A stretch of DNA of 64,000 bases, taken from Cytophagales bacterium (GTDB lineage: Bacteria > Bacteroidota > Bacteroidia > Cytophagales > Spirosomataceae). Shown here in pieces: positions 33,653 to 56,997 of this stretch. The position numbers were made by a program, and so were the translations under genes. Numbering within the stretch: position 1 is the stretch's first letter; the number at the start of each line of letters is the position of its first letter. The stretch lies in contig JANSYO010000001.1 in assembly GCA_024742395.1 (NCBI GenBank), forward strand, positions 62,001-126,000, in the 5' to 3' direction. The notes below the pieces were generated by a model. The model was not told the origin of the DNA and made no database searches. It saw only the letters and a list, made by a program, of their open reading frames with translations.

Positions 33653-33669
33653 TTCCAACTTTATGCCAA
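33653..33669 (-). promoter_or_regulatory. Sigma-54-like promoter of the ATPase-TolC operon
   Basis: On the minus strand it reads TTGGCAT-N7-GAA. The -24 box is consensus (TGGCAY); in the -12 box the G is kept but C is replaced by A. It lies about 70 bp before the ATPase start codon and 65 bp downstream of the centre of the nearest enhancer palindrome. Confidence 0.65.
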
Positions 33670-33724
33670 TAATATCAACCAGCTATCTATCAATACTTTA
33701 AGCAGATTCAATTTTCTTGTATAT

Positions 33725-33758
33725 GTTCATAAACGAACAATATTGTACGAGGCCGAAC
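33725..33758 (-). promoter_or_regulatory. Tandem 14-bp palindromes (enhancer) of the ATPase-TolC operon
   Basis: GTTCATAAACGAAC (33725-33738) and GTACGAGGCCGAAC (33745-33758) start exactly 20 bp apart. Their centres lie 65 and 85 bp upstream of the -24 GG. Same architecture as at 35705, 47052 and 56964. Confidence 0.7.
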
Positions 33759-33806
33759 ATAGCCTCTCCTCAAAAACAGCCCAGGTGTAAATTAAGAAAA
33801 ACAAAA

Positions 33807-33837
33807 AAAGAGCGAGGAAATGATATCCCCGCTCTTT
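33807..33837 (-). terminator. Terminator of the lipocalin-like gene
   Basis: An 11-bp stem with one mismatch (AAAGAGCGAGG / CCCCGCTCTTT) lies 24 bp after the stop; on the minus strand it runs into TTTTTTTGTTTTT. Confidence 0.88.
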
Positions 33838-33860
33838 AAAAAGCTCATGTATGTAATTTC

Positions 33861-34355
33861 TTATTCAGACAATTTTCTGAAAAGATAGCCAGGAGCATCA
33901 AATGCAATTCCCTGATCAATCATCATTTCATTGTCACAAATTCTTAATGTTCCTTTTACAATGTTATTCTCATTGAAACCATCCATCAGGTTATCGGTAA
34001 TAACTTGAATACTTGTATAACCGTTTTCAGTTTTCTCAATCACACTGTAAGCATCTGTATATACGTTTTGGCCGTCTTTTGTTACAAACACACCACCATC
34101 TTCTTTAAATTCAACCTTGATGTTTGGAATTTCAGTGGCTGGCATCATTGAAATAATTCCTTTTAGCTGCCACTTTCCTACAATCTTCGTTTGGGCATCC
34201 GAAAGCAATGGTGGGTTATCAGCTTGTTGGTTTATACAGCTAAAGTCCTCAATACTTTCTGCTTTAATCATGTCAGAAATTTCTTCGCTCTCTACCGTCG
34301 ATGTCTCACATGCGGCGAAGCTTAATAACGCTAGTCCTAAAAATAGTTTTTTCAT
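33861..34355 (-). CDS. Lipocalin-like lipoprotein, 164 aa
   Basis: A lipoprotein signal (LFLGLALLSFAAC, Cys near residue 16), an acidic linker, then a small beta-rich domain beginning IVGKWQLKGIISM and continuing IKVEFKEDGGVFVTKDG, YTSIQVITDNL, IVKGTLRICDNEMMIDQG. The I-V-G-K-W-x-L opening is common in small lipocalin-like domains of Bacteroidota lipoproteins. It is bounded by terminators on both sides, so it is monocistronic; no sigma-54-like promoter is seen. Function unknown. Confidence 0.65.
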   Translation of the reverse strand: MKKLFLGLALLSFAACETSTVESEEISDMIKAESIEDFSCINQQADNPPLLSDAQTKIVGKWQLKGIISMMPATEIPNIKVEFKEDGGVFVTKDGQNVYTDAYSVIEKTENGYTSIQVITDNLMDGFNENNIVKGTLRICDNEMMIDQGIAFDAPGYLFRKLSE

Positions 34356-34443
34356 AATAAATTGATTGTTTCCCTTTAAATGCGAATTGCGAAATCAACG
34401 TTGTATAAGAGAAACAGAAATTTATGTAAATTGATTTAACGGC

Positions 34444-34475: not shown

Positions 34476-34497
34476 GAGTCATTCTGATAAGGCACTA

Positions 34498-35520
34498 TTA
34501 ATTAATATACACATTGCCAGAGCTTGTAGAGATTTTCACCTGTACACCCCCTCCATTCACTGTGCCAGACACCCTGTCTTTATCAAAGGAGCCGTTGAAG
34601 TTTTTGTACTCCTTTATACTCACACGATTCCCTTTGATATCCAGGTCCATTCCTTTATTAAAGGGCATATCTACATCAATATTGCCACCGCTGCTGTGGA
34701 GCACCAGAAAATCTCCTACTTCTGTAATATCGGCATGAATGCCCCCTCCACTGGTATTGGCTTTTACACTTCCTCTGATAGCATCCAATGAAATAGACCC
34801 TCCTGAGGTAGAAGTAAAAAGTTCTCCTTCTACGCCATCCACTCTTACGCTCCCACCGCTGGTAGTAGCTCTTATACTTCCGTACATATTACCCAAGCTG
34901 ATGCCCCCACCACTGGTGGTAAGTCTAACTGTACCGGCCACATTTAAGGCTTCTATTCCTCCTCCACTGGTAGTTAAATCAATGTTATCTTCACTGTCTT
35001 TAATTTTAATACCTCCGCCTGAGGTTCTTCCTCTAACGTTACCTCTTAGACCAATAAGATCCAGTCCCCCTCCACTCGTGGTGAATTTTAAATCGCCCTC
35101 AAGGTTAGCCATTTTAATTCCGCCGCCACTGGTGTTTAATTCTGTATTGATTTGCTCCGGAGAATATACCTTAAAAGAAATAGTCAGGCCATTTTTCCAT
35201 GTCCAGCCTCTGGAGTTGTTTTTTGCAAAACACACCAACGTATTGCCCTCTTGTCTTACCTCAAGTGTATAATCTTCGAGTCTGTCTTCAATTTCACTCG
35301 CAGATAACTTACTGCCATTGCTTGATTTAACATACACTTCCACTACAGCTTCGGCATTATCTCTGCCCAATACTGTAATACTTCCGCCTGAGGTTTTCAC
35401 ATCCAGATTCCTGATTTGGGATGCCTTAAATGATTTGGTCATGTATGGGCTTGTTTGTGCAGATACGCCAAAACTTGAAGCACCTAATACTAGAAGAGTT
35501 AATAGTTTTTTCATTTTCAT
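34498..35520 (-). CDS. DUF4097 secreted beta-solenoid protein
   Basis: The 340-residue precursor has a Sec signal peptide (LLTLLVLGASSFGVSAQ). The mature part carries about ten copies of a T-S-G-G-[GS]-[IVL] unit with a period near 19-20 residues (TSGGGIKMANL, TSGGGLDLIGL, TSGGGIKIKD, TSGGGIEALN, TSGGGISLGN, TSGGSVRVDG, TSGGSISLDA, TSGGGIHADI), as expected for a right-handed beta solenoid of the DUF4097/DUF4098 group. It is exported to the periplasm or cell surface; function unknown. MKMKK at 35520 or MKK at 35514 may be the start. The gene has its own enhancer and sigma-54-like promoter of the same design as the permease operons, so it is probably in the same regulon. Confidence 0.92.
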   Translation of the reverse strand: MKMKKLLTLLVLGASSFGVSAQTSPYMTKSFKASQIRNLDVKTSGGSITVLGRDNAEAVVEVYVKSSNGSKLSASEIEDRLEDYTLEVRQEGNTLVCFAKNNSRGWTWKNGLTISFKVYSPEQINTELNTSGGGIKMANLEGDLKFTTSGGGLDLIGLRGNVRGRTSGGGIKIKDSEDNIDLTTSGGGIEALNVAGTVRLTTSGGGISLGNMYGSIRATTSGGSVRVDGVEGELFTSTSGGSISLDAIRGSVKANTSGGGIHADITEVGDFLVLHSSGGNIDVDMPFNKGMDLDIKGNRVSIKEYKNFNGSFDKDRVSGTVNGGGVQVKISTSSGNVYIN

Positions 35521-35634: not shown

Positions 35635-35651
35635 CACAACTTATTTGCCAA
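35635..35651 (-). promoter_or_regulatory. Sigma-54-like promoter of the DUF4097 gene
   Basis: On the minus strand it reads TTGGCAA-N5-TTGTG: -24 GG intact, -12 TTG intact, with C replaced by T. It lies 63 bp downstream of the centre of the proximal palindrome and roughly 115 bp before the start codon. Confidence 0.62.
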
Positions 35652-35704: not shown

Positions 35705-35738
35705 GTTCAAATTAGAACACAGCTGTTCGAATTCGGAC
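35705..35738 (-). promoter_or_regulatory. Tandem 14-bp palindromes (enhancer) of the DUF4097 gene
   Basis: GTTCAAATTAGAAC (35705-35718) and GTTCGAATTCGGAC (35725-35738) start 20 bp apart, with centres 63 and 83 bp upstream of the -24 GG. They occupy the 380-bp region between DUF4097 and the divergent second Crp/Fnr gene; no plus-strand TGGCA box is present, so they most likely serve DUF4097. Confidence 0.7.
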
Positions 35739-36764: not shown

Positions 36765-37055
36765 TCAAATTTGAGTTTTTTCCATTACCTTCTTCATTTC
36801 ATCTCTTTTCACAAAAGTAATTGGCACAAATTCATCGGTAGGTGAACCAATAAAGTAGAGCCTCCAATCATGGTCATAATCTTTTAATAAATGTTTTATA
36901 CACTCTGCTCTGTCGACTGTCGGAACAGTACAATCTTCCCAGTAAAATAATTCTACGCGATAGTGTAGCTGTTGCTTTTCACCATTGATAGTTACTTCTA
37001 TTTCTACATCTTGTTTTCCTTTGCCTTGTGGCAATGGTATTGCTATATGTGCCAT
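36765..37055 (-). CDS. Hypothetical protein, 96 aa, last gene of permease operon A
   Basis: The family is not recognised. It is soluble and beta-rich at the N-terminus (VEIEVTINGEKQQLHYRVELFYWEDC), with a helical middle (TVDRAECIKHLLKDY) and the ending WRLYFIGSPTDEFVPITFVKRDEMKKVM. No signal peptide is visible. It is 19 bp downstream of a permease gene on the same strand, so it should be made together with the four permeases and might be a cytosolic accessory; that is inference from position only. Confidence 0.7.
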   Translation of the reverse strand: MAHIAIPLPQGKGKQDVEIEVTINGEKQQLHYRVELFYWEDCTVPTVDRAECIKHLLKDYDHDWRLYFIGSPTDEFVPITFVKRDEMKKVMEKTQI

Positions 37056-37074: not shown

Positions 37075-39471
37075 TTATTCGTTTTTTAATGATTCTACCG
37101 GATTAAGAAATGCCGCCTTTACTGCTTGAAAAGAAACTGTAAGAAAAGCTACTGTTAATGCTACGAGAGCGGCCACTATAAATATCCAGGCTTGCATTTC
37201 TTCGCGATATGTATAGCTAGCCAGAAACTTCTTACCTGCGAAGAATGCCAGAGGAAAGGAGATGAGCAAAGAGATAAACGTAAGGATCAAAAAGTCCTTT
37301 GTCAGTAAGCTTACAATACTTGCCGTAGAAGCCCCTATGGCTTTTCTGATACCTACTTCCTTGGTTCGTCTCTCTGAGGAAAGCAAGGCCAGCCCGAAGA
37401 GTCCAATACATGAAATGAATATGGTCAGTAATGTACTGATAAATGTGATCTCTTTCCACTTTGATTCTCTTTCATAGGCTTTTTTGTTTTCAAGGCTTTT
37501 AAATCGATAAGAGTATGACTGGTAAGGGAATAAATCTTTAAATGCAGTTTCAATATGTGCTAAACTTTCAGATTCTGACTCGGGTTTAATTTTAATATTT
37601 ACCATGCCATAACCAGTGGGTCTCATAGTAAAAAGCTGCGGACCTATCTCGCTACTGAGACTTAGATAATGATAATCTTTGACCACACCAATCACAGAAT
37701 ATTTCTTTACATCGGAATACCAAAAATCTACTTGTTGCCCTATGGGCTGTTTCCAGCCTGCTTTTTTCACAAAACTCTCGTTAACCAAAATGGCTGAGGA
37801 GGCATCAGAGGGAAAATCTTCAGAGAAATTTCTACCCGCTGTAAGCTGTAATTTTAGCAATGGCAGATAGGCTTCGTCAATAGTCTCGTAGGCAAAGTTT
37901 AATTCGTCTTTTCCATTGACCATGGCTGATTTAATCCAACCTCCACTATTTTTAGGTGCTACCCCTTTTATATTCGGGTTGCTAATGAGCTTTTCTTTAA
38001 ATATATCTACTTTCCCTTTGTCTAAATTTCTACCAAAATTGACTTCGATTATATTTTCATCGTCATATCCAAGATCCTTGTTAATCAAATAATTAAACTG
38101 ATTATATACGGTTAGTGACAACACTATTAAAAAGCCTGCCAAAGCAAATTGTACCACTACAAGTGTTCTTTGAAGATAGTTTTTACCAGAAAGCTTAAAC
38201 CGGTTATATAAAGATGTTACCGGACTTTGACTACTCAATACCAAAGCAGGATAAAAACCGGCTAAGGTACTGGTAATTACAAATGTCAAAATGTATATAC
38301 TTACTAACTGATAGTCTAGCAAATAATCAAATGACAGGGCTTTGTTTGCCAGATCATTAAACTTGGGTAAAAAGAGATGAACCAACAAAATCGCCAAAAT
38401 AAATGCCAGAAAGCCTATCAAATAAGACTCTCCCAAAAACTGATAAATAAGCTGCCTTCTGTCTCCGCCAACTACCTTTCTGAGGCCAATTTCCTTGGCT
38501 CTTTTAAGAGACTGAGAAATAGTTAAATTGATAAAGTTTATACAAGCAATTATCAACAAGAAAATTGCAATAGCCGAGAGTAAGTAAGAAAGAACAGGAT
38601 TGCTGCCGTCTTTTAAACCATTTTGTGCCAAATAATCTGTACTTAAATGAATCTTTTCAAGAGGCTGCAAAAGGTATTTTGTCTTCTCCATATCCCCGTA
38701 AGTTTCCTGCATCTCCTTGAATGTCTGTGCAGTTTCTTTTTCATAGTAGGCGGCCATAGAGGCTTCAACTTCTTCCTTTCGGGAGTTTTCTTCCAGTAGC
38801 ACAAAAGTGTTCAGGAAAAAGTTAAACCATTGTTCACCTTCTATATTTCCGGCATTATTTTCGGCATAGGCTAATAAAATGTCGAATTTAATACTTGAGT
38901 TTTGAGGAGTCTTTTTTGAAATACCTGTTACGGTATAATATTCAAATTCGTCGGCCTTTTTTATTTCTAGTGTTTCATTTAATGCATTCTTTTTCCCAAA
39001 AAATTGAAGGGCTTTTTCCTCAGAAATAACAATTGATTTCGGTTTATTTAGGGCGGTTTGTTGGTTTCCGTATATTAGTGGAAAGTTAAATACCGAAAAG
39101 AAAGAAGGGTCCACACTTAACATTTCAAAGCCTTCAACACCGTTCTGGAGTTTTATATCGTTGTATTCGCCTTTCACCCTCACATATTCTTTAATACCAG
39201 GTACATTGGCCTTAAACATAGGGCCTTGCGGGTTTCCGGTGTTGCTGTCTGAGCCACCTTTGCTTCCGTCAGGATTGTACCAATCATTTACAACCCTGTA
39301 GATTTGAGGACCCTGTTCATGAAAACGATCATAACTTACTTCGTCTTTCACATACAGCGTGATAAGCATTACAACAGCGAGGCCCAGGGATAAACCCAGA
39401 ATGTTGATTGTACTAAACACTTTATTTCGTGCGAGGTTTCTCCAAGCTATTTTAAAGTAATTTTTTAGCAT
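37075..39471 (-). CDS. MacB/FtsX-type ABC permease (array member 1)
   Basis: The 798-residue protein is built as two fused MacB-like halves. A membrane helix (about 20-42) is followed by a large periplasmic domain (45-290), three helices with FtsX motif, a further helix, a second periplasmic domain (about 460-680) and a final three-helix FtsX unit. Cytoplasmic coupling motifs RAKEIGLRKVVGG (near residue 325) and RTKEVGIRKAIGAS (about 95 residues from the end) are intact, and the tail is the array-typical NPVESLKNE. It has no ATPase domain, so it needs a separate LolD/MacB-type ATPase. Such permeases use transmembrane mechanotransmission to move substrate already in the periplasm. Fourth permease of operon A, 14 bp after the previous one. 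Confidence 0.93.
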   Translation of the reverse strand: MLKNYFKIAWRNLARNKVFSTINILGLSLGLAVVMLITLYVKDEVSYDRFHEQGPQIYRVVNDWYNPDGSKGGSDSNTGNPQGPMFKANVPGIKEYVRVKGEYNDIKLQNGVEGFEMLSVDPSFFSVFNFPLIYGNQQTALNKPKSIVISEEKALQFFGKKNALNETLEIKKADEFEYYTVTGISKKTPQNSSIKFDILLAYAENNAGNIEGEQWFNFFLNTFVLLEENSRKEEVEASMAAYYEKETAQTFKEMQETYGDMEKTKYLLQPLEKIHLSTDYLAQNGLKDGSNPVLSYLLSAIAIFLLIIACINFINLTISQSLKRAKEIGLRKVVGGDRRQLIYQFLGESYLIGFLAFILAILLVHLFLPKFNDLANKALSFDYLLDYQLVSIYILTFVITSTLAGFYPALVLSSQSPVTSLYNRFKLSGKNYLQRTLVVVQFALAGFLIVLSLTVYNQFNYLINKDLGYDDENIIEVNFGRNLDKGKVDIFKEKLISNPNIKGVAPKNSGGWIKSAMVNGKDELNFAYETIDEAYLPLLKLQLTAGRNFSEDFPSDASSAILVNESFVKKAGWKQPIGQQVDFWYSDVKKYSVIGVVKDYHYLSLSSEIGPQLFTMRPTGYGMVNIKIKPESESESLAHIETAFKDLFPYQSYSYRFKSLENKKAYERESKWKEITFISTLLTIFISCIGLFGLALLSSERRTKEVGIRKAIGASTASIVSLLTKDFLILTFISLLISFPLAFFAGKKFLASYTYREEMQAWIFIVAALVALTVAFLTVSFQAVKAAFLNPVESLKNE

Positions 39472-39485
39472 AACTAATTCCCTTT

Positions 39486-41918
39486 TTACTCACTCCTTAA
39501 AGATTTTACCGGATTCACTACTGCCGCCTTTATACTTTGATAACCAACGGTTAAAATAGCGATACAAACAGCGGACACCCCAGCCAGAACCAGCACCCAC
39601 CAGCTGATTTCGATTCTATATGAAAAATCCTGTAGCCACTTATTCATGGCATACCAGCCCAGCGGAATAGAAATTAAAATAGCCAGGCCTACCAGCTTCA
39701 GGAAATCAAAAGTAAGCCTGTAAACTATTTGCGAAACACTGGCTCCCATGACTTTTCTTACTCCTATTTCTTTCGTACGTTTCTGAGCATTAAAAGCAGC
39801 CAAACCAAACAAGCCCAGACAGGCAATAAGCAAAGAGATGAAAGTAAAGGTCATAAATATTTTCCCTAATCGCTGTTCTGTCTCATAGGTGTTATTGAAA
39901 GAATCATCCATGAAATAATGATTAAATGGTTGACCAGCTGCCACAGTACCCCATTTTTCTTCAATAGCTCCAATTGTATTGCTAAAATCGCCAGCTTCTA
40001 GCTTGACTACCAGCTTATTAGCATATTCTCCCAAATAAAAACTCAAAGCCCCTATTTCATCTTTAAATGACTCAAAATGGAAATTTTTAACGACTCCAAT
40101 AATGGTGTAAACATTCTCCGGCTCACCTCCTGGGGAATCTCCCAGCTTTCTCCCAATCGATTCTTCTGGCTGTAATCCCAGAATGGCCAGAGCTGTTTCA
40201 TTAATTATAATTCCGGTAGAATCTGTGCTGAAGCTTTTATCAAAATCTCTGCCTGCCAGCATTTCAAAATCCAAAGTTTCAACATAATCATGATCCACCC
40301 TCCAGGCTTGCATTTGGACTGTTTTATCGTTGTCACCATTGCCTAGTAAAGAATATCCATTGTCTGATCTGTTTGAGGGTGTGGGCAAGTAACTGCTTAA
40401 GGTGGCAGACTTCACTCCATTTAAACTCAAAACTTCATTCTTAAATGTTTCTACCTGTTCGCCGGCAGCATAGACATCATCAATAATCAAAATCTGGTCT
40501 TTACTATAGCCCAAATCTTTATTCTGAATAAACTTCAGTTGCTGAAAAACCACCAGTGTACTAATGATTAAGAATATTGATATAGCAAACTGAAAAACGA
40601 CCAAAGCATTTCTGACTTCTCCACCACCAGTACTGGATTCACCATCGCCTTTAAGCACCTTTACCGGAACAAACCTTGATAAAAAGAAGGAAGGGTAGCT
40701 GCCCGACACCATTCCCAGAATGGCTGTACTTACAAGAATAATCAACCAGAACATGGGGCTTAAGAATGGTATTTCAATCTCTTTACCAGAGAGCTGATTA
40801 AAGTATGGCGTAAGAACCAAAGCCAACAAAATAGCTATTAAAAGTGATAGGAAAGAGACCACGCCAGACTCCGTTAAAAATTGACGGATCAGGCCCGACT
40901 TATTAGAGCCCAGCGTTTTTCTTATGCCTACTTCTTTGGCTCTTTTTAAAGACTGGGCTGTTGAGAGGTTCATAAAATTGACTACCGCAAGCACGATCAG
41001 AAACAAGGCAATGAATGATAAAATATAAACAGTCTGTTTTGTGCCGTTTGTATTCATCTCGGCTACTCGGTTCCCAGATAGATGCAGATCTAGCAAAGAA
41101 ACTGTACTGTAGCGAATATAGTTACCATCAGCCTCAAACTTCTCTCTGTTAAGGTTCGGCATGAATTTCTCGGCATAAGGCACCATATACTTATCAAACA
41201 ATATCTGTAGGGGCTGCTGAAGATCAGCCGCTTTAGCAGATGGAATCAACTTTATGAACGTATTAAAGTTATTGCTTCCCCATTCTTGGCTTTTGGCTTC
41301 TTCATAGCCTGCCATTGACATGAAAACAGAGTAATTCCTTAAAAAGGAATTCTTAGGTAAATCAGGAATAACACCTGTCACCTGGTATGTTTCTTCATTA
41401 TTAATAGTAATACTTTGCCCTAAAGCAGAGCTGCTTCCAAAATGTTTTCTGGCAGTGGTTTCTGTCAGCACTACTGTATTAGGCTGCTCAAGGGCGGTTT
41501 TAGCGTCTCCCTCTGAGAGGTTTAGACCAAAAAACTGCAGAAAATTAGCGTCGGCAAAAGTACTCTGCTCTTCTTTTTGATTTTGAAGAGTTTCGGGTCT
41601 TCTTACCAGCATGCTGCCCCAGGTTCTGAAACGAGTAGCATCTTCTATCTGATCAAAATCCTTTTTTACCGCAGCTGCTAAGGGAGGTACAACCACGGCA
41701 AACTCCTGAGCCTGACCACCAAACTTGATATCAACATTTACTCTATGAATTCTTTCAGCATCTGCAAAGCTTTTATTATTACTGAACTCATCGACAATAT
41801 AAAGTGATATTAATAACGCCCCGGCCATACCTACAGCAAGACCAAATGTGTTTAGAAAAGTGAAAAAGGGTTGCTTTTTCAGGCTTCTCCAGGCGATTTT
41901 CAGGTTATTCTTTAACAT
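39486..41918 (-). CDS. MacB/FtsX-type ABC permease (array member 2)
   Basis: This 810-residue permease has eight predicted membrane helices (about 20-42, 292-315, 345-370, 388-408, 433-458, 685-707, 735-755, 772-792) and two periplasmic domains between them. The coupling motifs RAKEVGIRKTLGSNKSGL and RTKEIGVRKVMGASVSQI are intact; the tail is NPVKSLRSE. It is the closest relative of the next upstream permease: the N-termini share MLKNNLKIAWR, LKKQPFFTFLN and GMAGALLISLYI, and the spacers before both start codons begin with the same 16 bases. That points to a fairly recent tandem duplication. Confidence 0.94.
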   Translation of the reverse strand: MLKNNLKIAWRSLKKQPFFTFLNTFGLAVGMAGALLISLYIVDEFSNNKSFADAERIHRVNVDIKFGGQAQEFAVVVPPLAAAVKKDFDQIEDATRFRTWGSMLVRRPETLQNQKEEQSTFADANFLQFFGLNLSEGDAKTALEQPNTVVLTETTARKHFGSSSALGQSITINNEETYQVTGVIPDLPKNSFLRNYSVFMSMAGYEEAKSQEWGSNNFNTFIKLIPSAKAADLQQPLQILFDKYMVPYAEKFMPNLNREKFEADGNYIRYSTVSLLDLHLSGNRVAEMNTNGTKQTVYILSFIALFLIVLAVVNFMNLSTAQSLKRAKEVGIRKTLGSNKSGLIRQFLTESGVVSFLSLLIAILLALVLTPYFNQLSGKEIEIPFLSPMFWLIILVSTAILGMVSGSYPSFFLSRFVPVKVLKGDGESSTGGGEVRNALVVFQFAISIFLIISTLVVFQQLKFIQNKDLGYSKDQILIIDDVYAAGEQVETFKNEVLSLNGVKSATLSSYLPTPSNRSDNGYSLLGNGDNDKTVQMQAWRVDHDYVETLDFEMLAGRDFDKSFSTDSTGIIINETALAILGLQPEESIGRKLGDSPGGEPENVYTIIGVVKNFHFESFKDEIGALSFYLGEYANKLVVKLEAGDFSNTIGAIEEKWGTVAAGQPFNHYFMDDSFNNTYETEQRLGKIFMTFTFISLLIACLGLFGLAAFNAQKRTKEIGVRKVMGASVSQIVYRLTFDFLKLVGLAILISIPLGWYAMNKWLQDFSYRIEISWWVLVLAGVSAVCIAILTVGYQSIKAAVVNPVKSLRSE

Positions 41919-41971
41919 AGCTTTTAAATTAATACTTTCAAAAAAATCACGGGCTCATCCTCTCCGATACC

Positions 41972-44407: not shown

Positions 44408-44461
44408 AGCTTTTAAATTATTTTTTTATCAAATCACTAACTGATTTCTTCGGATTCAGCC

Positions 44462-46980: not shown

Positions 46981-46997
46981 ATCTAATGATGTGCCAA
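46981..46997 (-). promoter_or_regulatory. Sigma-54-like promoter of permease operon A
   Basis: The minus strand reads TTGGCAC-N7-GAT: a perfect -24 box and a -12 box with the G kept and C replaced by A. The nearest enhancer palindrome centre lies 64 bp upstream of the GG. Confidence 0.68.
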
Positions 46998-47051: not shown

Positions 47052-47085
47052 GTTCACAATCGGACGATTTAGTTCGTAGGTGAAC
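47052..47085 (-). promoter_or_regulatory. Tandem 14-bp palindromes (enhancer) of permease operon A
   Basis: GTTCACAATCGGAC (47052-47065) and GTTCGTAGGTGAAC (47072-47085) start 20 bp apart, with centres 64 and 84 bp from the -24 GG. They occupy the 307-bp gap between the first permease of operon A and the FG-GAP gene. Confidence 0.72.
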
Positions 47086-47162: not shown

Positions 47163-49136
47163 TTACTTATCCAACAAATATAAAAAACCATCTTCGGCAC
47201 CAACCAGAAGCTGTGGCCCGGATTTTTTGTTCAAATGGATAATAGTGGGAGAAGTGGTGTGACCTGCCAATGTTTGCTCTGAAACATCTCCTCTAAAAGC
47301 CATTTGTACTTTATGCTCTTTAATCCCAGTGTTTTCAAATAAGACAATGTTCTTCCCATTTACCAGCAAATCCAGATCACCATCCTTGTCCCAGTCAGCA
47401 AAACACAATTTTCGTCGACCGCTACTTCCTGCTATGCCCGTATTCAGTTGTAATGGGCCGTAATCATAATTTTGTACTTCATTTCTATTACTAAAGGCTG
47501 AGCCATGTGTTCCATAAAATATACGCTTCCCCGGCCGCAATTTAAGACTACCCCTGTAAACAAAACGCTCAAAATAGGTCAAATACCCTTGATGATCTAA
47601 CATAACAAGATCCATCATTCCGTCATTATTCCAATCTATCGCGTAGGGTGTAGTTCGCCATTGGGTTACTAATTCATTCGACATTGGAGACCACCAATTC
47701 CAGCCAGGTTTAGGAACGGAAGTCGTGTCCCAGACTATCTCCACTGCCTTGGGGTTTGTCAGTTCTGCATCTCCCTTCTTTCCTGTATTTCTCAACCACT
47801 CTACTCTCCCCCAAATAGAATTCACCAAAATATCTTTTAAGCCGTCTCCATCCCAGTCTGCCACAGAAAGAGTAGTATATCCCCATTTTGCTTCTGCAGG
47901 CCCTTGAATTGATCCATTTTCACCTGCCTGATAACGAACAGGTTTATCATTCACAGTTAAATAAACGGGTTCGGCCCAAGAACTCCCCAGATTTTCTATA
48001 AATCCAATATATCCTGCAGAATTCCCGCAGATTAAGTCCTCATCTCCATCGTCATCCCAATCTACCGCATAAGGAGTAACCAAAGCTCCAAATTTCACTT
48101 TGTCTGCTTTTTGTTTCAAATATTTAGGGTTTTCAAATTGCGGCATATTGTCTTTGATCCGTCCGGTATTTAGGAGTAAAGCTACCCGACCATCCTCATC
48201 TCCTATGATCAAATCTATATCGCCGTCAGAATCCCAGTCCACCGCAGATGGAATAATCATCTCAAGATCCATTTTTATCAGACCCCTTGCATTGCTTAAA
48301 AATCGACCAGCAGCAAAAACAGGATTACTTCTGCTACCTACGTTTTCAAACCAAGTCAATCGGTCCAGAAACTCACCACAAATCAGATCCAAATCACCAT
48401 CATTATCGAAATCATACATATTGGGAGAAGGAGCCCCATATACATCAATGGGTTTGCCATTTGCTATGATTTTACCTCTGTTTTCGTAGCTCCCTTTTAC
48501 ATTTTCGAGGTAGTATACAAAACCTCTCAAAGGACCATTTGTCCAATTCCCTTTGTCGTCAAAAGCATTGTCCCAGCCATAATCTGCCCAATCGTCAATC
48601 CCTACCAATACGTCCTGATCGCCATCTCCGTCATAGTCCACATATTTCCACTGACTGAAACGAATTTTCTTGTGATTCTTTTCAAGTTCGTTTTTATCAT
48701 AAATAGTCTGCGGATCTTTAAATACTTCCTTCCTAAAATTCTGATATTCAACACCTGCACTTGTCACCCTAGGTTCATCATTTACAAAAGATACCTGAAG
48801 GTTTTTCATTCCTTCTCCAATCCTAACACCTTTTTCAAAAACGACTTCCCCGGTATTATCTACCGATTTATTCTCAAAGAAGTACGTTCCGTTAGAAGGT
48901 TTATCCGGACATGAAACCAATAAGTCCATATCGCCATCTCCATCAAAATCCATAGGCAGTGGCCAAGCCCAAAGGCCTACTCCTAAATCCACGTTTAATT
49001 TGGGGTTATTATACTCTAAGCTCTTAAAATCATTGATCTGAGCATGTAAAGGAAATAGCAAAGAGATACCCGAAAGCACAGAAACTAAAGGAAAAAAAGG
49101 AGCAACTACGGCTTTAGCGGTTGTAAAGAAATTCAT
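47163..49136 (-). CDS. Secreted FG-GAP/VCBS repeat protein
   Basis: The 657-residue protein has a long N-terminal signal sequence (ending LLFPLHAQ) and about eight FG-GAP-type repeats, each with a calcium-binding D-x-D-G-D-x-D-L core: FDGDGDMDLLV, YDGDGDQDVLVG, FDNDGDLDLICG, WDSDGDIDLIIG, WDDDGDEDLICG, WDGDGLKDILV, WNNDGMMDLVM, WDKDGDLDLLV. The fold should be a seven- or eight-bladed propeller on the cell surface or secreted. I see no type IX secretion C-terminal domain; it ends with the propeller strand LLVGAEDGFLYLLDK. It interrupts the permease array on the same strand, with its own 241-bp upstream region containing a possible sigma-54 promoter. Role unknown. Confidence 0.9.
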   Translation of the reverse strand: MNFFTTAKAVVAPFFPLVSVLSGISLLFPLHAQINDFKSLEYNNPKLNVDLGVGLWAWPLPMDFDGDGDMDLLVSCPDKPSNGTYFFENKSVDNTGEVVFEKGVRIGEGMKNLQVSFVNDEPRVTSAGVEYQNFRKEVFKDPQTIYDKNELEKNHKKIRFSQWKYVDYDGDGDQDVLVGIDDWADYGWDNAFDDKGNWTNGPLRGFVYYLENVKGSYENRGKIIANGKPIDVYGAPSPNMYDFDNDGDLDLICGEFLDRLTWFENVGSRSNPVFAAGRFLSNARGLIKMDLEMIIPSAVDWDSDGDIDLIIGDEDGRVALLLNTGRIKDNMPQFENPKYLKQKADKVKFGALVTPYAVDWDDDGDEDLICGNSAGYIGFIENLGSSWAEPVYLTVNDKPVRYQAGENGSIQGPAEAKWGYTTLSVADWDGDGLKDILVNSIWGRVEWLRNTGKKGDAELTNPKAVEIVWDTTSVPKPGWNWWSPMSNELVTQWRTTPYAIDWNNDGMMDLVMLDHQGYLTYFERFVYRGSLKLRPGKRIFYGTHGSAFSNRNEVQNYDYGPLQLNTGIAGSSGRRKLCFADWDKDGDLDLLVNGKNIVLFENTGIKEHKVQMAFRGDVSEQTLAGHTTSPTIIHLNKKSGPQLLVGAEDGFLYLLDK

Positions 49137-49377: not shown

Positions 49378-51801
49378 TTACTCTGATTTTATACTATGTA
49401 TAGGATTTGCTTTGGCCGCAGCTATAGTCTTGTAAATGACAGTTAAGAGACAGACCACAAGGGTACATACTACAGCAAAGAAAATTAGCCCAACCGTGTT
49501 CTCGATTCTGTAAGTGTAAGAATTTAGCCACAGGTTCATGGCATAAATACCAATTGGAATTCCAATGCTAACTGAAATGGCTACTAAAACCAGAAATTCC
49601 AATGATAGTAATCGCGTTATCTCGAAAACCGAGGCCCCTAACACTTTTCTTACTCCTATTTCCTTGGTTCTCTGCTGTGTAGTAAAAGAAACCAGGCCCC
49701 AGATTCCTAATAAACTGATTACAATAGCAAGAAAAGCAAAGGTATTTGACACCTTCTTTAGTCTTTGCTCTTCTGCGTAAATTGAAGCCATTTTATCATC
49801 TAAAAAACTAAACTGAAAAGGAACCTCTGGATTATGTTTAAGCCAAATTGACTCTATGCTTGAAAGTAAATCAGAAGTATTGCTTGCATTAAATTTAACT
49901 ATCAAATTATTCAGATCGTTATCATAAAATGTTGCCACCGGTACTATCGCATTTTTCAGCGAAAGAAAATTGTAGTCTTCAATTACCCCAACAATTTCGT
50001 ACGGCGAATCTCCGGCCTCCATATGATTATTGTGAAATTGCATTCCAATGGCCTCTTCCAAATCTATTTCAAAGGTTTTGAGAAATGTTCTATTCACCAC
50101 CATCTGGGTACCATCTGCTTCAGGAAAAACTCTACCCTTTAGAAGCTTGATATCCATGGTTTGAAAGAAGTTTTCCCTGGCCAAATTCAAGTTAACAATT
50201 TGACCGTCATCTGCGGTTCTGCCTTTTGGAAAAAGTAATTGATCATACCAAATATTCTCCGAAGGGATGAATTCTGTTCCCGTAACCTCCTCTACGGAGC
50301 TAAGATTTTCCAGATCATTCTTTAATACCTGATAATTCTCCATAGCTTTTGAAGTCTTAAGTGGTACCACCAATTTTTGGTACTGTGAGAAACCCAAATC
50401 CTTTTTATTCAGATGGGTAATTTGGTTAGTTATGACTGACACAGCATAAATCAGTAAGAAGACCATAACGAATTGAAATACTACAAGCCCATTTCTAAAT
50501 AGAAACGCCCTCTTCCCAGTTTTAAAACTCTGTTTAAGTATCCTGATTGGGTCCATCACAGATAAATACATAGCCGGATAAGACCCTGAAATCAAACCGG
50601 TCACCAGTCCTAATAAAACTATAGTAATCAACATCTTAAGGGAAAGTATATCCTGTAAAATCAATGAACCATTTAGTAGTTCATTCATTGAAGGTAGCAT
50701 GATGATTAAAATCGGCAGAGCCAATAACACTGAAAAAATAGAAATCATAATTGACTCTATTAAAAACTGATAAACCAAAGCTTTGCTTGCAGCACCATTC
50801 ACCTTGCGTACGCCTATCTCCTTGGCTCTTTTGGTGGCCTGAGCAGTAGTTAAGTTGATATAATTTATGCAGGCCATCAATTGAATAAAAAAGGCAATCC
50901 CCATTAACAAATAGAGATACTTAATATCTGACGTTTTACCCAATGGATTGGAATATTCGCTTGACCTCAAATTGATATCTTTTATGGCCAGCAGTCCCAA
51001 ACTTTTATCCATGGAGATAGACCGCAAATAATCACCGGCATTTTTTTCCAGAAAACCCGGCAGCTTGCTTTCCAGTGAGGTTAAAGTAGTATTAGGATGA
51101 ACTTTAAGATAAGTATGAACAAAATTATTGGTTCCTAATTCACTGGAGCCGGCTACATAAGAGCCCATGCCCGTGCTGGGCATACTTATTATATAATTAG
51201 GTTTTAAATGTGTTTTAATTCCTTTGTCGTCTAATACTCCGGTTACCTGAGCAATAAAATGGTCGTCACCATTTGATACCTCAATGGCCTTTCCTAAAGG
51301 ATTCTGTTCTCCGAAAAGCTTATCTTTTAATGCGGTAGAAAGTACAATGGTATTCGGTTTATCTAAAGCTGTTTTTCTATCGCCGAGCAATAAGTGAAAA
51401 CTGAATACATCGAAAAAAGTAGAATCAGCCAGATAGCCCATCTTCTCAAAAACCGCCTGCTCCGCTTTCTCCGGTTTCATTAAAAACTCATTACTTCCTA
51501 AGTCAACCACCCGGGTCTGAACCTCAATTTCTTCAAAATCCCGTTGCAATGCAGGGCCAATGCCCGGAGAAGCGGTTATAGAAACAAAATCTGCAGTACC
51601 TGAGTGTTTGTTTGTAGTAGTTACTTTAAATATCTGCTGATATCCTTCAAATTCTTCCTCAAAACCGAATTGAGACTGAACAAAGGCCAGAATGCCTAAG
51701 CAGCAAACCGTACCAACCAATAAACCCACAAGGTTTATCAGTCCGTATGATTTAAAATTGACCAAATTCCTCCAGGCTATTTTGATATAGTTACGTATCA
51801 T
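49378..51801 (-). CDS. MacB/FtsX-type ABC permease (array member 5, last of operon B)
   Basis: The 807-residue permease begins MIRNYIKIAWRNLVNFKSYGLINLVGLLVG. Coupling motifs are RAKEIGVRKVNGAASKAL and RTKEIGVRKVLGASVFEI; the tail is NPIHSIKSE, more divergent than in other members. Its 67-bp upstream spacer, start codon and first codons closely match those before member 6, although the two proteins are not especially similar. Beyond the spacer lies a decayed permease tail (51869-51931). The 228-bp gap to member 6 lacks the enhancer pair, so expression probably depends on read-through from operon B. Confidence 0.93.
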   Translation of the reverse strand: MIRNYIKIAWRNLVNFKSYGLINLVGLLVGTVCCLGILAFVQSQFGFEEEFEGYQQIFKVTTTNKHSGTADFVSITASPGIGPALQRDFEEIEVQTRVVDLGSNEFLMKPEKAEQAVFEKMGYLADSTFFDVFSFHLLLGDRKTALDKPNTIVLSTALKDKLFGEQNPLGKAIEVSNGDDHFIAQVTGVLDDKGIKTHLKPNYIISMPSTGMGSYVAGSSELGTNNFVHTYLKVHPNTTLTSLESKLPGFLEKNAGDYLRSISMDKSLGLLAIKDINLRSSEYSNPLGKTSDIKYLYLLMGIAFFIQLMACINYINLTTAQATKRAKEIGVRKVNGAASKALVYQFLIESIMISIFSVLLALPILIIMLPSMNELLNGSLILQDILSLKMLITIVLLGLVTGLISGSYPAMYLSVMDPIRILKQSFKTGKRAFLFRNGLVVFQFVMVFLLIYAVSVITNQITHLNKKDLGFSQYQKLVVPLKTSKAMENYQVLKNDLENLSSVEEVTGTEFIPSENIWYDQLLFPKGRTADDGQIVNLNLARENFFQTMDIKLLKGRVFPEADGTQMVVNRTFLKTFEIDLEEAIGMQFHNNHMEAGDSPYEIVGVIEDYNFLSLKNAIVPVATFYDNDLNNLIVKFNASNTSDLLSSIESIWLKHNPEVPFQFSFLDDKMASIYAEEQRLKKVSNTFAFLAIVISLLGIWGLVSFTTQQRTKEIGVRKVLGASVFEITRLLSLEFLVLVAISVSIGIPIGIYAMNLWLNSYTYRIENTVGLIFFAVVCTLVVCLLTVIYKTIAAAKANPIHSIKSE

Positions 51802-51931
51802 AATTCTAGTATTTAAAGCATTTTGGGTGTTATAAGTAATATGTCTCTATCTCGCTTCCAGGAGAATCCTATTCACTTCTAAAGCTCATGACAAGATCCT
51901 TTTTTTCCGCTTTGATATCCTGAAAACTTTG
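51770..51931. repeat. Imperfect direct repeat, copy 1 (flanks array member 6)
   Basis: About 160 bp (first codons of a permease, 67-bp spacer, last 20 codons of an upstream permease) are repeated at 54356-54518 with the same order and orientation. Spacer text such as TTATAAGTAATATGTCTCT is identical in both copies. Confidence 0.8.
51869..51931 (-). pseudogene. Decayed C-terminal remnant of a permease gene
   Basis: On the minus strand this reads SFQDIKAEKKDLVMSFRSE then TAG. It aligns codon for codon, without indels, to the end of array member 7 (SFQAIKAALMDPVKSLRSE then TAG), sharing 12 of 19 residues, including the Asp that member 7 has where most other members have Asn. Directly upstream the frame is closed by TAA and homology ends. 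It has no start and is not expressed as a protein. Confidence 0.85.
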
Positions 51932-52029
51932 TTAAATACAACTTACTAGAGGCATTGCAAGTGCTATGCTATGCCCCGGCAGTAGAATTGATTTAACTTT
52001 ATTATGTATATAATAGAATGGTTTTGAGT

Positions 52030-54387
52030 TTATTCATTTCTCAGACTATCAACAGGATTCATTAATGATGTTTTTATCACTTGAAAGCCAATGGTAAATA
52101 GTGTAATCATAACAGATCCTATGGCGGTCACAATAAAAACTCCCCAACTGATATTAATTCTGTAAGTATATTTTTGTAGCCACTCAGTCATGAAATACCA
52201 TGAAACTGGAGCTGCAATCAAACATGCCAACAGAACCAAAACAAGAAACTCTCTGGTCAACAGCTGTAAGAGACTGCCTACCGATGCACCCAATACCTTA
52301 CGAATACCAATCTCTTTGGTACGTTGCTCAGCAACGAAACTAGCTAAACTAAATAGACCTATACTTGATATAAATATTCCAATGAAAGTGAAAAATAAAG
52401 AGAGTTTGCTCAGCATTGCCTCCGTCTTGTATTCACTTTTAAAAACATCTTCAAGCAGAGTATACTCAAATGGATAATCAATGTGATTTTTATCAAAAGC
52501 AGCTTTCACTTGTGCAATCTGATTAGCCAAATTATCATTATCACTTAGTTTTATATAGTAATGCTGACCCACATTTTCAGAGTACATCATAACTAAAGGC
52601 TGTATTTTAGACTGCAAATTATCGTTATGAAAATCGTCCAAAACGCCAATAATACGCCCCTCTCCATTCCACATTTTTAGCTTTTGACCTATGACATTTT
52701 CAAGTGAATACCCCATGAGATTCATAGCCGTGGAATTAATTATATAATTTGAAGAGTCTGTATTACTGTTAAAATTCCTGCCGGCCAGCATTCTGATTTC
52801 CATAGTAGGTATAAATTCAGAATCACATCGAAAAATTTTAAAAATCGTAGACGAGTTGGCAGGCTTTCCATTCCAAACTGGATCTGTGGTAGTAATAGGA
52901 ATAGTGAAAACATTACTTCCCGCAAAAGTCATATTCTTCACAAATGGCAATTGCCTTACATCATTCTTTAAACCTTCATAGTGTTTAACAATTTCATCAT
53001 TTTGATTAATTACTAGTATATTATTCTTATTAAACCCCAGGTTCTTCTTATTGATAAAATCCATTTGTTTGTAAACTAATACACTCCCTATCACCAGAAG
53101 AATAGCTGTTGAAAATTGACCAGTTACTAAAATTTTACGGAGCAAGGCACCATTCGAATTTATAGAAACTCCGCCCTTCAGTGCCTTTATAGGCTTTACT
53201 TTAGAAAACCTATACGCCGGATAACTCCCTGCCACTAACCCCGTAATAACAGTAAGGATAATTAAGGCTAAAAGAAAAGCTGGATCAATTGGCATCAGCG
53301 AAATTGATTTGCCTGTTACCTGATTAAAAAGCGGCATAGATAGAAATAATAGAAAGAAAGCCAGAATCATGGATATAAATGAAGTTATAATTGCTTCAGA
53401 AATAAACTGAACAACCAAACTGGACTTCAATGCTCCTACTGATTTTCTTACCCCTATTTCTTTTCCCCGTATAGTGGATTTAGCTATAGAAATATTAATA
53501 AAATTTATACATGCCATGGCCAGAATAAACAAGGCTATTAAGCCAAAAAGGGTTACTTGCCATATTTTCCCACCTACATTTTTACCGTTTTCAAAATCAC
53601 TATGTAGCCTTAGTTTTGAGTATTGATAAATGAAAGGAGAGGTAGTACATTGGCCGCAATTCTTTTGTATCAAACCCGATATTTTTCTATTTACCTGTTC
53701 CTTCATTTTGTAGGACTTAAGCATCAATAGCGTAGAAATAGCCCCACTTTGCCAATTTTGCGTCCAGGGATTCTCCTTTAAATAAAGTTCTATCGGAAGT
53801 ACAAAGTCAACTCGTAAAGATGAGTTATCAGGAACATCATTAAAAACACTATTGACTTGCAAGGTATGATTAGAGCCTACAATGAGCATTTTACCTATAG
53901 GATCTTCATTTTTAAACAGCTTTTCAGATAACTTTTTTGATATCGAAACAGAATTGACTCCACTTAAAGGCACCTCCTTACTCCCGTTTATAATATTGAA
54001 GCTTAAAATCTTAAAGAACGCAGAATCAGCATAAATCCCATTTTCAATAAAGCTTTCGGTTTCATGTTTAATTAACAGATCGGTTGGATAACTTTGATGT
54101 GACACCAATTCTACTTCTGGTATTTCATTTTTTATTGCCTCTTTTAATTTGGATGGAGTCGCAGGATAAGTTTCTACTTTCCCATCTTCATAGGTATTAT
54201 TTACGAGTACTTTAAAAATTCTGTCTGTATTAGAATAGTGTTTATCAAAAGATAACTCATCCCATATCCATAAACCAATGAGAAGAGTTACAGTCATTCC
54301 AACAGCAAGTCCACTTATATTAATCAAAGAATAAAGTCTATTTCTGACTATATTTCTCCAGGCTATTTTAATATAGTTACGTATCAT
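52030..54387 (-). CDS. MacB/FtsX-type ABC permease (array member 6)
   Basis: This permease is about 785 residues from MIRNYIKIAWRNIVRNRLYSLINISG. That ATG (54387) is chosen because all other members start at the same motif and the spacer upstream matches that of member 5; an ATG 27 bp earlier is in frame. Coupling motifs are RGKEIGVRKSVGALKSSL and RTKEIGIRKVLGASVGSL; the tail is NPVDSLRNE. By eye it is more AT-rich than its neighbours. It is bracketed by the 160-bp direct repeats, which suggests it entered or was duplicated as a unit between members 5 and 7. Confidence 0.93.
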   Translation of the reverse strand: MIRNYIKIAWRNIVRNRLYSLINISGLAVGMTVTLLIGLWIWDELSFDKHYSNTDRIFKVLVNNTYEDGKVETYPATPSKLKEAIKNEIPEVELVSHQSYPTDLLIKHETESFIENGIYADSAFFKILSFNIINGSKEVPLSGVNSVSISKKLSEKLFKNEDPIGKMLIVGSNHTLQVNSVFNDVPDNSSLRVDFVLPIELYLKENPWTQNWQSGAISTLLMLKSYKMKEQVNRKISGLIQKNCGQCTTSPFIYQYSKLRLHSDFENGKNVGGKIWQVTLFGLIALFILAMACINFINISIAKSTIRGKEIGVRKSVGALKSSLVVQFISEAIITSFISMILAFFLLFLSMPLFNQVTGKSISLMPIDPAFLLALIILTVITGLVAGSYPAYRFSKVKPIKALKGGVSINSNGALLRKILVTGQFSTAILLVIGSVLVYKQMDFINKKNLGFNKNNILVINQNDEIVKHYEGLKNDVRQLPFVKNMTFAGSNVFTIPITTTDPVWNGKPANSSTIFKIFRCDSEFIPTMEIRMLAGRNFNSNTDSSNYIINSTAMNLMGYSLENVIGQKLKMWNGEGRIIGVLDDFHNDNLQSKIQPLVMMYSENVGQHYYIKLSDNDNLANQIAQVKAAFDKNHIDYPFEYTLLEDVFKSEYKTEAMLSKLSLFFTFIGIFISSIGLFSLASFVAEQRTKEIGIRKVLGASVGSLLQLLTREFLVLVLLACLIAAPVSWYFMTEWLQKYTYRINISWGVFIVTAIGSVMITLFTIGFQVIKTSLMNPVDSLRNE

Positions 54388-54518
54388 AATTCTAGTTTTT
54401 AATGCATTTCGCATTGTTATAAGTAATATGTCTCTTTCTCACTTCTACGATCATCCTATTCACTTCTTAAACTTTTGACAGGGTCCATTAATGCGGCTTT
54501 GATAGCCTGAAAACTCAC
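54356..54518. repeat. Imperfect direct repeat, copy 2 (flanks array member 6)
   Basis: This copy contains the working 5' end of member 6, a 68-bp spacer and the functional last 20 codons of member 7. It corresponds base for base, in order, to 51770-51931. Confidence 0.8.
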
Positions 54519-56858
54519 TGTTAATAAAGTAATTAAAATTGCTCCCACACCGGCTAAAAGAAAAATCCACCAAGCCATATTGGTTCTGTAGGTATACCTG
54601 CTCAAAAAGGCATCCATGCCCCACCAAGCCAAGGGCACAGCTATAAACATGGAGATGCACACTAACCACACGAAGTCTTTTGAAAGCATGGCCCAAAGAT
54701 TTGGTACAGAGGCCCCCAGAACTTTTCTTACTCCTATTTCTTTGGTACGTTGCTCTGCTACAAATGAAGCCAGACCGAATAAACCTAAACAACTGATCAG
54801 AATAGCCAGCACAGTAAATACACTTGCCAGAGAACCAATGCGTTCTTCCATGGCGAATTTCCGGCCATATTCTTCGTCAATAAACTGATAGTCAAAGGGA
54901 AGGCTAGGAAAATGCTCCTTAAAAACCCTTTCTATTGTAGTCAGATTTTCCTTGGCAGACTTCTCTGGATTTAACCTAAGGTTATAAAAATTAGAATTCT
55001 CATACCGGTCAAAAGCATAAATAGCCTGTTTTACCGGCTCATAAGGCGACTGGGCAATGATATCATCAACCACTCCCACAATAACCATAGGGGGGTCTAT
55101 GCTTTCTTCGTTATCGTCTCTTAACTGCAGACCTATAACATCCGTCTTGCCTATGTATTTTACAAAGGTCTTGTTCACAAGAATGGCATTAGAGTCTGTT
55201 GACATTTCTCTTGACAAATCTCTCCCTGCAATAATTTTCATTCCTAATGATTTGGCAAACTCCGGAGAGACTTCAGTCCAGGCAAAATCTTCCTGAAAGC
55301 CTTCAGGTTTACCTTCCCATAAAAAACCAGAACGGTTAGAATAGACGTCTGTAGTGGGGCTACTACTGGTAGACATCTCCACCACAGCACCACTGTTAAG
55401 AAACTGAGTTCTCATAAAATCTGCCTTACCACTGAACTCAGTAGACATGGCGGGTAATTGAACCATTCCTTCTTTATTATAACCAATAGGTCTGTTCTTT
55501 GTATGGTTTATCTGCCTCATGACTAAGGAGGTACCTATAATCAAGGCGATAGATACGGTAAACTGCATAACCACCATCACCTTTCTTGGAATGGCCGCTA
55601 GTTTACCTGCCTTAAATGTCCCTTTAAGAACCTTAACGGGCTGAAAGGAAGAAAGATACAGTGCAGGATAACTACCAGAAATTATAGCCGTAAAAGCAAT
55701 AAAACTAAGGCTAGCCAGCCAAAAAGTACCATTCAGCCATGGAAACTCAATTTGTTTGTCGGCCAGATCATTAAAGGGATTCAAGAAGAGTAAAACCAAA
55801 ATCAAGGCAATAACAAAGGCCAAAACCACCACCAAAAAAGATTCGCTTAGAAATTGATAAATTAATTGAGTTCGTAAAGAACCTATAGACTTTCTTATCC
55901 CCACTTCTTTAGCTCTTTTCTCTGATCGGGCTGTGCTCAAATTCATAAAATTAATACAGGCCAAGAACAGCACAAAAACCCCTATGACTCCAAAGAGCCA
56001 AACCAATTGAATTCTGCCACCGGCTTGGACACCATTCTCAAACAATGATCTCAGATACCAATCTTTCATGGGATGTAAAATCAACGTTGGGTTATAGTCC
56101 TGAAAATCTTCTCCGGCTGCATCGTATTTTGCCTTGGCAATTATTTTAGAAACCCCTTCTACAGTCTGATTCTCTTTCACCTGAGCAAACAACTGAAATG
56201 AATTGTTCCCCCAGCCATCCATTGAATTCTTAACCCATTCATTCTCTGCTACATATTGATCCCAGGGCATTAAATAATGGGTATCATAAAAGCTGGTATT
56301 GAATGGAAAATCTTCATAAACTGCCGTCACCTTCATATCGGTTCGGTTATTGACTTTTACGATTTCCCCTATCGCATCCTTTTCACCAAAAAGAGCTTTT
56401 GCCGTGGAAGCAGAAAGCATAATTGACTTTATCTCTTTTAAGCCCTGCTTTTGGCCCGCAATGACCTTTACGTCAAACATCTCTGGCCCGGCACTCTGCA
56501 TATAATTACCCGTCTTGTTTATTGTAATATCGCCTGCTCTTAAGTATCGAGACTGTGTCCAGGTACTCATTACTATATGCTCAAAATACTGGTTATAATT
56601 ATTTTTTAACTCAAACTCTAATGGACGCGGTATGGCCTGACCAGTACTTACTGAGCCATTAAAAGTTTGACTCTGCCAAAACTGACCTATTTTATCCTTT
56701 TTAGAAAAATAGCTATCATGTGTAAGCTCACCGCTTACCCAAAGGCCGATCATGATGGTCACAGCCATCCCTAAAGCTAAGCCTAAGACATTGATAAGTG
56801 AATAGGTAGGGTGATTCAGAAGATTTCTCCAGGCTATTTTAATGTAGTTTTTAAGCAT
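54456..56858 (-). CDS. MacB/FtsX-type ABC permease (array member 7, first of operon B)
   Basis: An 800-residue permease that begins MLKNYIKIAWRNLLNHPTYSLINVLGLALGMAV. Coupling motifs are RAKEVGIRKSIGSLRTQL and RTKEIGVRKVLGASVPNL; the tail is MDPVKSLRSE, with Asp instead of the usual Asn. It is the first gene of operon B: the 178-bp region upstream holds the enhancer palindromes and a sigma-54-like promoter only about 35 bp before the ATG. Its 3' end is the source of the remnant at 51869-51931. Confidence 0.94.
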   Translation of the reverse strand: MLKNYIKIAWRNLLNHPTYSLINVLGLALGMAVTIMIGLWVSGELTHDSYFSKKDKIGQFWQSQTFNGSVSTGQAIPRPLEFELKNNYNQYFEHIVMSTWTQSRYLRAGDITINKTGNYMQSAGPEMFDVKVIAGQKQGLKEIKSIMLSASTAKALFGEKDAIGEIVKVNNRTDMKVTAVYEDFPFNTSFYDTHYLMPWDQYVAENEWVKNSMDGWGNNSFQLFAQVKENQTVEGVSKIIAKAKYDAAGEDFQDYNPTLILHPMKDWYLRSLFENGVQAGGRIQLVWLFGVIGVFVLFLACINFMNLSTARSEKRAKEVGIRKSIGSLRTQLIYQFLSESFLVVVLAFVIALILVLLFLNPFNDLADKQIEFPWLNGTFWLASLSFIAFTAIISGSYPALYLSSFQPVKVLKGTFKAGKLAAIPRKVMVVMQFTVSIALIIGTSLVMRQINHTKNRPIGYNKEGMVQLPAMSTEFSGKADFMRTQFLNSGAVVEMSTSSSPTTDVYSNRSGFLWEGKPEGFQEDFAWTEVSPEFAKSLGMKIIAGRDLSREMSTDSNAILVNKTFVKYIGKTDVIGLQLRDDNEESIDPPMVIVGVVDDIIAQSPYEPVKQAIYAFDRYENSNFYNLRLNPEKSAKENLTTIERVFKEHFPSLPFDYQFIDEEYGRKFAMEERIGSLASVFTVLAILISCLGLFGLASFVAEQRTKEIGVRKVLGASVPNLWAMLSKDFVWLVCISMFIAVPLAWWGMDAFLSRYTYRTNMAWWIFLLAGVGAILITLLTVSFQAIKAALMDPVKSLRSE

Positions 56859-56892
56859 GCTTGTTTCTTATTAATTTTCTTCTTTCTTCAAG

Positions 56893-56909
56893 TTCACACA
56901 CCATGCCAT
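56893..56909 (-). promoter_or_regulatory. Sigma-54-like promoter of permease operon B
   Basis: The minus strand reads ATGGCAT-N7-GAA. The -24 GG is intact; in the -12 box G is kept and C replaced by A. It lies 64 bp downstream of the centre of the proximal palindrome. Confidence 0.62.
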
Positions 56910-56963
56910 GATCATAAATGATTGACTATGTTCTATTTACAATAGCTACACGACTCCAAATTT

Positions 56964-56997
56964 GTTCACTATCGAACATTTCCATTTGATTTCGTAC
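56964..56997 (-). promoter_or_regulatory. Enhancer palindromes of permease operon B
   Basis: A good copy GTTCACTATCGAAC (56964-56977) is followed 20 bp on by a degenerate copy ATTTGATTTCGTAC (56984-56997) that keeps only the GTAC half. Centres are 64 and 84 bp from the -24 GG. Confidence 0.62.

Follow-up and report, generated by a model that had tools for sequence, protein, structure and literature searches.

The window analyzed here, 64,000 nucleotides (nt) of a Cytophagales bacterium of the Spirosomataceae (GCA_024742395.1, contig JANSYO010000001.1, positions 62,001-126,000), contains, together with the DNA past its end (L016; the contig of the cluster is C345), a cluster of export genes encoding duplicated permeases, ATPases, an adaptor, a TolC-family channel and a DUF4097 protein. 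On sequence evidence we estimate a probability of roughly 0.8 that a two-component system controls this cluster as its sigma-54 regulon, a reading that includes the sharing of an ATPase among the permeases. Since a fifth promoter (P5), the first genes of its operon and the divergent activator and kinase genes were found past the window end, the cluster comprises five operons plus the kinase and activator: the latter two genes face away, followed by operons P5, P4, P3, P2 and P1. Each promoter combines an enhancer of two tandem palindromes with a sigma-54 (-24/-12) element:

33725..33758, minus strand: P1 enhancer, tandem palindromes GTTCGGCCTCGTAC-N6-GTTCGTTTATGAAC
33654..33668, minus strand: P1 sigma-54 element TGGCATAAAGTTGGA, spacer 56 nt
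35705..35738, minus strand: P2 enhancer, GTCCGAATTCGAAC-N6-GTTCTAATTTGAAC, perfect GTYC/GRAC
35636..35650, minus strand: P2 sigma-54 element TGGCAAATAAGTTGT, spacer 54 nt
47052..47085, minus strand: P3 enhancer, GTTCACCTACGAAC-N6-GTCCGATTGTGAAC, perfect GTYC/GRAC
46982..46996, minus strand: P3 sigma-54 element TGGCACATCATTAGA, spacer 55 nt
56964..56997, minus strand: P4 enhancer, proximal half GTTCGATAGTGAAC perfect, distal half GTACGAAATCAAAT (56984-56997) degenerate
56894..56908, minus strand: P4 sigma-54 element TGGCATGGTGTGTGA, spacer 55 nt
L016:2566-2599 (C345:128566), just beyond the window: P5 enhancer, a paired site, with the sigma-54 element TGGCACATCCTTGGCA 55 nt downstream of the paired palindromes

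A first-pass annotation of the window had described four such loci, each with two palindromes starting 20 base pairs (bp) apart and a TGGCA box on the minus strand at a centre-to-GG distance of 63-65 bp. All four were recovered in place and on that strand. A base-by-base check found the offset to be exact (33725/33745, 35705/35725, 47052/47072 and 56964/56984), and the distance agrees with palindrome-to-TGGC spacers of 56, 54, 55 and 55 nt at P1 to P4. The description needs amending in two respects: the distal half of the fourth pair is degenerate, leaving that pair with 3 mismatches in total, and the cluster holds not four promoters but five, P5 lying 2.6 kb past the window end, between the adaptor-ATPase-permease operon and the divergent activator and kinase genes.

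It is the pairing and its placement that are distinctive. When one mismatch is allowed, the window contains 17 single palindromes, no more than shuffled sequence does (19.5). Paired sites with at most one mismatch number four in the genome (5.54 Mb scanned), all inside 33 kb of C345, three of them within the window and one being P5. The other genome-wide pair matches, which carry 3 mismatches, are at chance level (17 in all vs 24 for the reversed pattern), and pairs together with a sigma-54 element give 4 matches in the whole genome vs 0 for the reversed pattern. The first-pass annotation had also said what would refute it, namely paired palindromes being equally common away from TGGCA boxes; the test was run, and they are not.

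The genes divergent from P5 encode the predicted regulators:

L016:2681-4000, plus strand: activator, a response regulator with receiver, AAA+ and Fis-type helix-turn-helix domains (PF00158, E 2.5e-67; PF02954; PF00072)
L016:4033-5346, plus strand: histidine kinase with two transmembrane helices

The site travels with this activator. We compared 80 orthologous activator loci from named Bacteroidota and found that the divergent gap contains the tandem GTYC-N6-GRAC and a -24/-12 element in 59 of them, with a palindrome-to-box distance of 52-56 bp. The two palindromes are separated by 6 bp in the majority of Cytophagales and by 7 bp in Chitinophaga. Among 49 genomes of the family, exact sites are present in 38 of the 39 that encode an activator orthologue and in none of the 10 that do not (Fisher p about 1e-9, a value in which the kinship of the genomes overstates independence). 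One apparent case of a site-bearing genome without the activator was resolved, as the gene there is cut by the start of the record. In a census of 390 genomes of the order, we found the full pattern, its sigma-54 box placed at 50-58 bp, in 117 genomes and the reversed pattern in none; the reversed pattern and, within one family, a 20-49-bp spacing served as negative controls. These observations, together with the same promoter preceding the same gene classes at unlinked loci (see below), strongly support the earlier proposal that one activator acting with RpoN would control the permeases, their ATPase, TolC and DUF4097. They also bear on the possibility that the promoters are indeed of the sigma-54 type but the palindromes are bound by another activator of the genome, for instance that at window 1362-2858, beside a second rpoN. 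The genome does encode five true sigma-54 activators and two rpoN (Sigma54_DBD) genes, the other copy being on C278; nevertheless, the site adjoins orthologues of the cluster activator and not of the others, and the ten family genomes without the orthologue have other activators and no sites, making this explanation improbable. As a separate observation, window 87-5761 (plus strand) encodes RpoN (its reading frame starts before the window) and, downstream of it, an activator of the NtrC type, a PAS kinase and a hybrid receiver-kinase; two rpoN genes per genome are unusual.

The geometry of the promoters speaks to the nature of the polymerase. In the search pattern, TGGCA (-24) was a criterion and the -12 box was left free; the latter emerges unimposed (T12 91%, T13 77%, G14 82%), as do R at palindrome position 5 and Y at position 10 (GTYCR-N4-YGRAC). 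Within one family there are 241 matches at 50-58 bp (79 genomes), with a peak at 53-55 bp, vs 30 at 20-49 bp (91 genomes), and a second spacing class has its maximum at 64-66 bp, a full helical turn away. Such helical-turn classes would be expected of a DNA loop in which activator and polymerase have to come together on the same face. A spacing of 62-88 bp proved unusable as a negative control, as its 163 matches in 91 genomes include some -12 boxes of the same promoters, the majority being genuine members of the 64-66-bp class. One could instead read the palindromes as binding sites of an ordinary repressor or of a sigma-70-type activator, with the TGGCA boxes incidental, given that GTTC-N6-GAAC is a generic dyad whose single copies are at chance level. 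The locked, helically periodic spacing to TGGCA, the unimposed -12 TTG and the association with a sigma-54 activator render this very improbable, even more so than binding by a different sigma-54 activator, and both readings were rejected on the evidence against them.

The spacers between enhancer and promoter contain a further element. The IHF consensus, WATCAANNNNTTR, occurs in 14 of 102 non-redundant spacers vs 0.6 in shuffles, and these IHF-like sites cluster at two distances from the -24 box, 18-19 nt and 5-7 nt. P1 and P2 contain exact copies at these offsets, namely TAAAGTATTGATA 19 nt and AATCAATGGTTTA 6 nt upstream of their respective sigma-54 elements. The site would bind an IHF/HU protein.

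The kinase and the activator each show a characteristic feature conserved across relatives. Hydropathy profiles indicate almost no external loop between the two transmembrane helices of the kinase, as also in nearly all of 69 relatives (the exceptions being one with a single segment and one that is mis-framed); two transmembrane helices with a very short external linker are what defines an intramembrane-sensing kinase. In the activator, the sigma-54 contact loop reads GAYTDA in place of the canonical GAFTGA, and the orthologues have GAFTDA, GSFTDA or GAYTDA in 79 of 80 cases, the remaining one not being read, whereas the other activators of this genome have TGA or TSA. As this variant is conserved across the activator clade, the chemistry of the loop may differ. 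We propose that an envelope perturbation would be sensed within the membrane by the kinase, leading to phosphorylation; regulator dimers would bind both palindromes, an IHF/HU-type bend would fold the enhancer onto the promoter, and the sigma-54 polymerase would be opened. The permeases without a neighboring ATPase would then act as alternative inner-membrane modules on a common ATPase, MacA-like adaptor and TolC.

The genes downstream of the five promoters are as follows:

32919..33581, minus strand: P1 operon, ATPase 2, a MacB/DarD-like nucleotide-binding domain with intact Walker A, signature, Walker B and H-loop
31581..32888, minus strand: P1 operon, TolC-family outer-membrane channel
34498..35520, minus strand: P2 operon, DUF4097 'toastrack' protein, LiaG-like
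33861..34355, minus strand: P2 operon, predicted lipoprotein of 164 amino acids (aa), lipobox FAAC
37075..46855, minus strand: P3 operon, four duplicated MacB_PCD/FtsX permeases, ADOP/DarB-like
36765..37055, minus strand: P3 operon, conserved 96-aa cytosolic protein
49378..56858, minus strand: P4 operon, three duplicated permeases
47163..49136, minus strand: P4 operon, FG-GAP repeat protein, downstream of the permeases
57037..64000, minus strand: P5 operon (portion inside the window), three duplicated permeases, of which the third starts near 64299, past the window
L016:472-1149, beyond the window: P5 operon, ATPase 1
L016:1179-2429, beyond the window: P5 operon, HlyD/MacA-type adaptor

Catalytic motifs are intact in both ATPases. 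Relatives of the 96-aa protein in distant genera are 56-73% identical and encoded near regulon permeases or ATPase 1; family searches found no credible family for it and no match for the 164-aa lipoprotein. Two CRP/FNR-like genes with cyclic-nucleotide-binding domains (30937-31512 and 35901-36503, both plus strand) flank the ATPase 2-TolC and DUF4097 operons. Elsewhere in the window (17122-20044), a phytochrome-type kinase gene (minus strand) is divergent from a heme oxygenase gene (plus strand), a light-sensing pair.

The same gene classes recur behind these promoters in other genomes. In a sample of 101 promoters, biased towards genomes with several sites and with downstream genes assigned through similarity to the window proteins, about 85% lie upstream of duplicated permeases of the MacB/ADOP type, the adaptor-ATPase operon, ATPase-TolC or DUF4097, in most cases at unlinked loci. 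For the first spacing class (80 non-redundant promoters from 30-odd genomes), direct sequence matches place regulon genes downstream in 65: duplicated permeases in 32, adaptor-ATPase in 24, ATPase 2-TolC in seven, and DUF4097 and the activator itself in one each; one further promoter precedes a PadR gene and then a duplicated permease. The second class (64-66 bp; 21 promoters) has 14 before permeases, five before PadR-type genes as found before ADOP permeases, and the last two before two secreted proteins, related to each other and each about 238 aa long. The PadR genes directly behind 64-66-bp promoters (L226, L227, L229, L230 and L238) precede permeases of about 880-926 aa, and it seems that local PadR control is layered upon predicted sigma-54 control at these loci. 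In one genome (G342; L195, around 5058) and its genus, a palindrome pair has sigma-54 boxes on both sides; this is a predicted bidirectional enhancer that would act on the activator-kinase operon in one direction and on a permease gene in the opposite one. Directly behind some first-class promoters (L144:1500 and 4401, L156, L192, L194 and L136) are genes for signal-peptide proteins of 67-105 aa, including a family of 67-83 aa encoded upstream of BlaI/BlaR1-type genes, a duplicated protein of 95 aa and another of 105 aa. Family searches gave no credible family for them; they are candidate cargo or periplasmic effectors, at this stage no more than a lead. A first look returned 40 to over 100 ADOP/MacB-type candidates in many genomes, but with only two candidates per genome scored, ADOP matches were discarded as a count of permeases per genome.

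All ten regulon-type duplicated permeases of the genome lie in the cluster. A single further duplicated permease is encoded on C271, where an ATPase gene of its own immediately precedes it. The ten retain an N-terminal helix and two conserved cytoplasm-facing segments (54-58% identity), after the first and third membrane blocks, whereas their periplasmic parts fall to 15-30% identity. This combination would be expected of permeases that dock onto one shared ATPase while handling different cargo. From co-regulation and the conserved segments, we infer that the permeases without a neighboring ATPase share the co-induced ATPase, adaptor and TolC. A competing account accepts the regulon but has the permeases use other ATPases, or function as mechanosensory or LolCE-like parts of separate machines under the same stress. 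Co-regulation does differ from complex formation, and the regulon contains two different ATPases; yet the permeases have no neighboring ATPases, keep their cytoplasm-facing segments and are tied to the same ATPase, adaptor and TolC genes in many genera, so that we regard this account as unlikely, though well short of negligible. A broader form of the sharing hypothesis can be offered only tentatively: in Cytophagales and Chitinophagales, the dispersed permeases might be exchangeable parts of a single export platform (one adaptor, one or two ATPases and TolC), switched on as a unit via sigma-54 by an intramembrane-sensing kinase, with the short signal-peptide proteins of 67-105 aa as cargo taken from the periplasm.

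Several observations weigh against a single shared regulon of this kind. The case for ATPase sharing consists of the predicted co-regulation and the conserved segments, and other LolD/MacB-like ATPases are encoded in the genome. A few of the promoters lie before genes with no relation to export. Two genomes (G251 and G290) have the activator and no exact site, another (G114) has it with no exact site of the main spacing class, and in genus g83 (G119) five activator paralogues occur with no exact sites. The activator occurring without exact sites in some genomes indicates that specificity has drifted in places. This genus also has very many duplicated-permease candidates alongside the five activator paralogues, a possible diversification of site specificity; a search of that genus for divergent sites gave no clear motif.

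The regulatory logic is that of classical NtrC/sigma-54 systems, with a receiver-AAA+-Fis helix-turn-helix activator and partner kinase, tandem upstream palindromes, a -24/-12 promoter and an IHF-like site between them; what differs is the variant loop in place of GAFTGA and a dispersed permease repertoire as target. A computational study (PMC12316311, 2025) reports that FtsX-like permeases (COG0577) of several classes, Bacteroidia among them, are enriched for sigma-54 promoters, and presents this as the first evidence of such regulation; its consulted sections name no activator, enhancer, spacing, kinase or common ATPase/adaptor/TolC core for these permeases. An earlier study (Francke 2011; PMC3162934) mentions neither these transporters nor Bacteroidetes. 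BceS of Firmicutes is an intramembrane-sensing kinase working with FtsX-type permeases (PMC3023708, PMC10314905), and BceRS-BceAB resembles the present system in genetically tying such a kinase to an ABC permease of the FtsX fold whose external domain is large, as does the Lia system in the LiaG-like protein of the regulon. Unlike BceRS-BceAB, the system described here has an NtrC-type regulator with sigma-54, a MacA-MacB-TolC-like pump and many permeases. The darobactin exporter DarBCD/MacAB-TolC provides the best NCBIfam matches for the adaptor (DarC) and the ATPases (DarD), and the permeases match ADOP and DarB, all below the cut-offs (277, 147 and 197 bits vs 375, 700 and 450 for NF038007, NF038008 and NF038010); here there are ten permeases per ATPase set, and no darobactin-type genes were recognized in the operons examined. 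ADOP proteins (TIGR03434) share the duplicated MacB_PCD-FtsX layout across the full profile length, and PadR genes adjoin some regulon members; the score is 304.5 bits for window 57037-59439 against a cut-off of 622 bits, with none of the 390 genomes above it, and here, unlike in ADOP, a regulon links the permeases to an ATPase. No description of this regulon was found in the literature searched, the coverage of which is incomplete, and the regulon, its activator and the link of orphan permeases to one ATPase/adaptor/TolC core seem to be undescribed so far.

The analysis assigns a predicted activator, sensor and DNA code to the permease expansions of Bacteroidota, and it suggests, across an order of bacteria, an ATPase, an adaptor and a channel that would drive those permeases for which no ATPase is encoded nearby. 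If this is true, loss of one activator gene should silence the entire permease repertoire, and the site pattern can be used in any genome to list that repertoire together with small secreted proteins, possibly its cargo.

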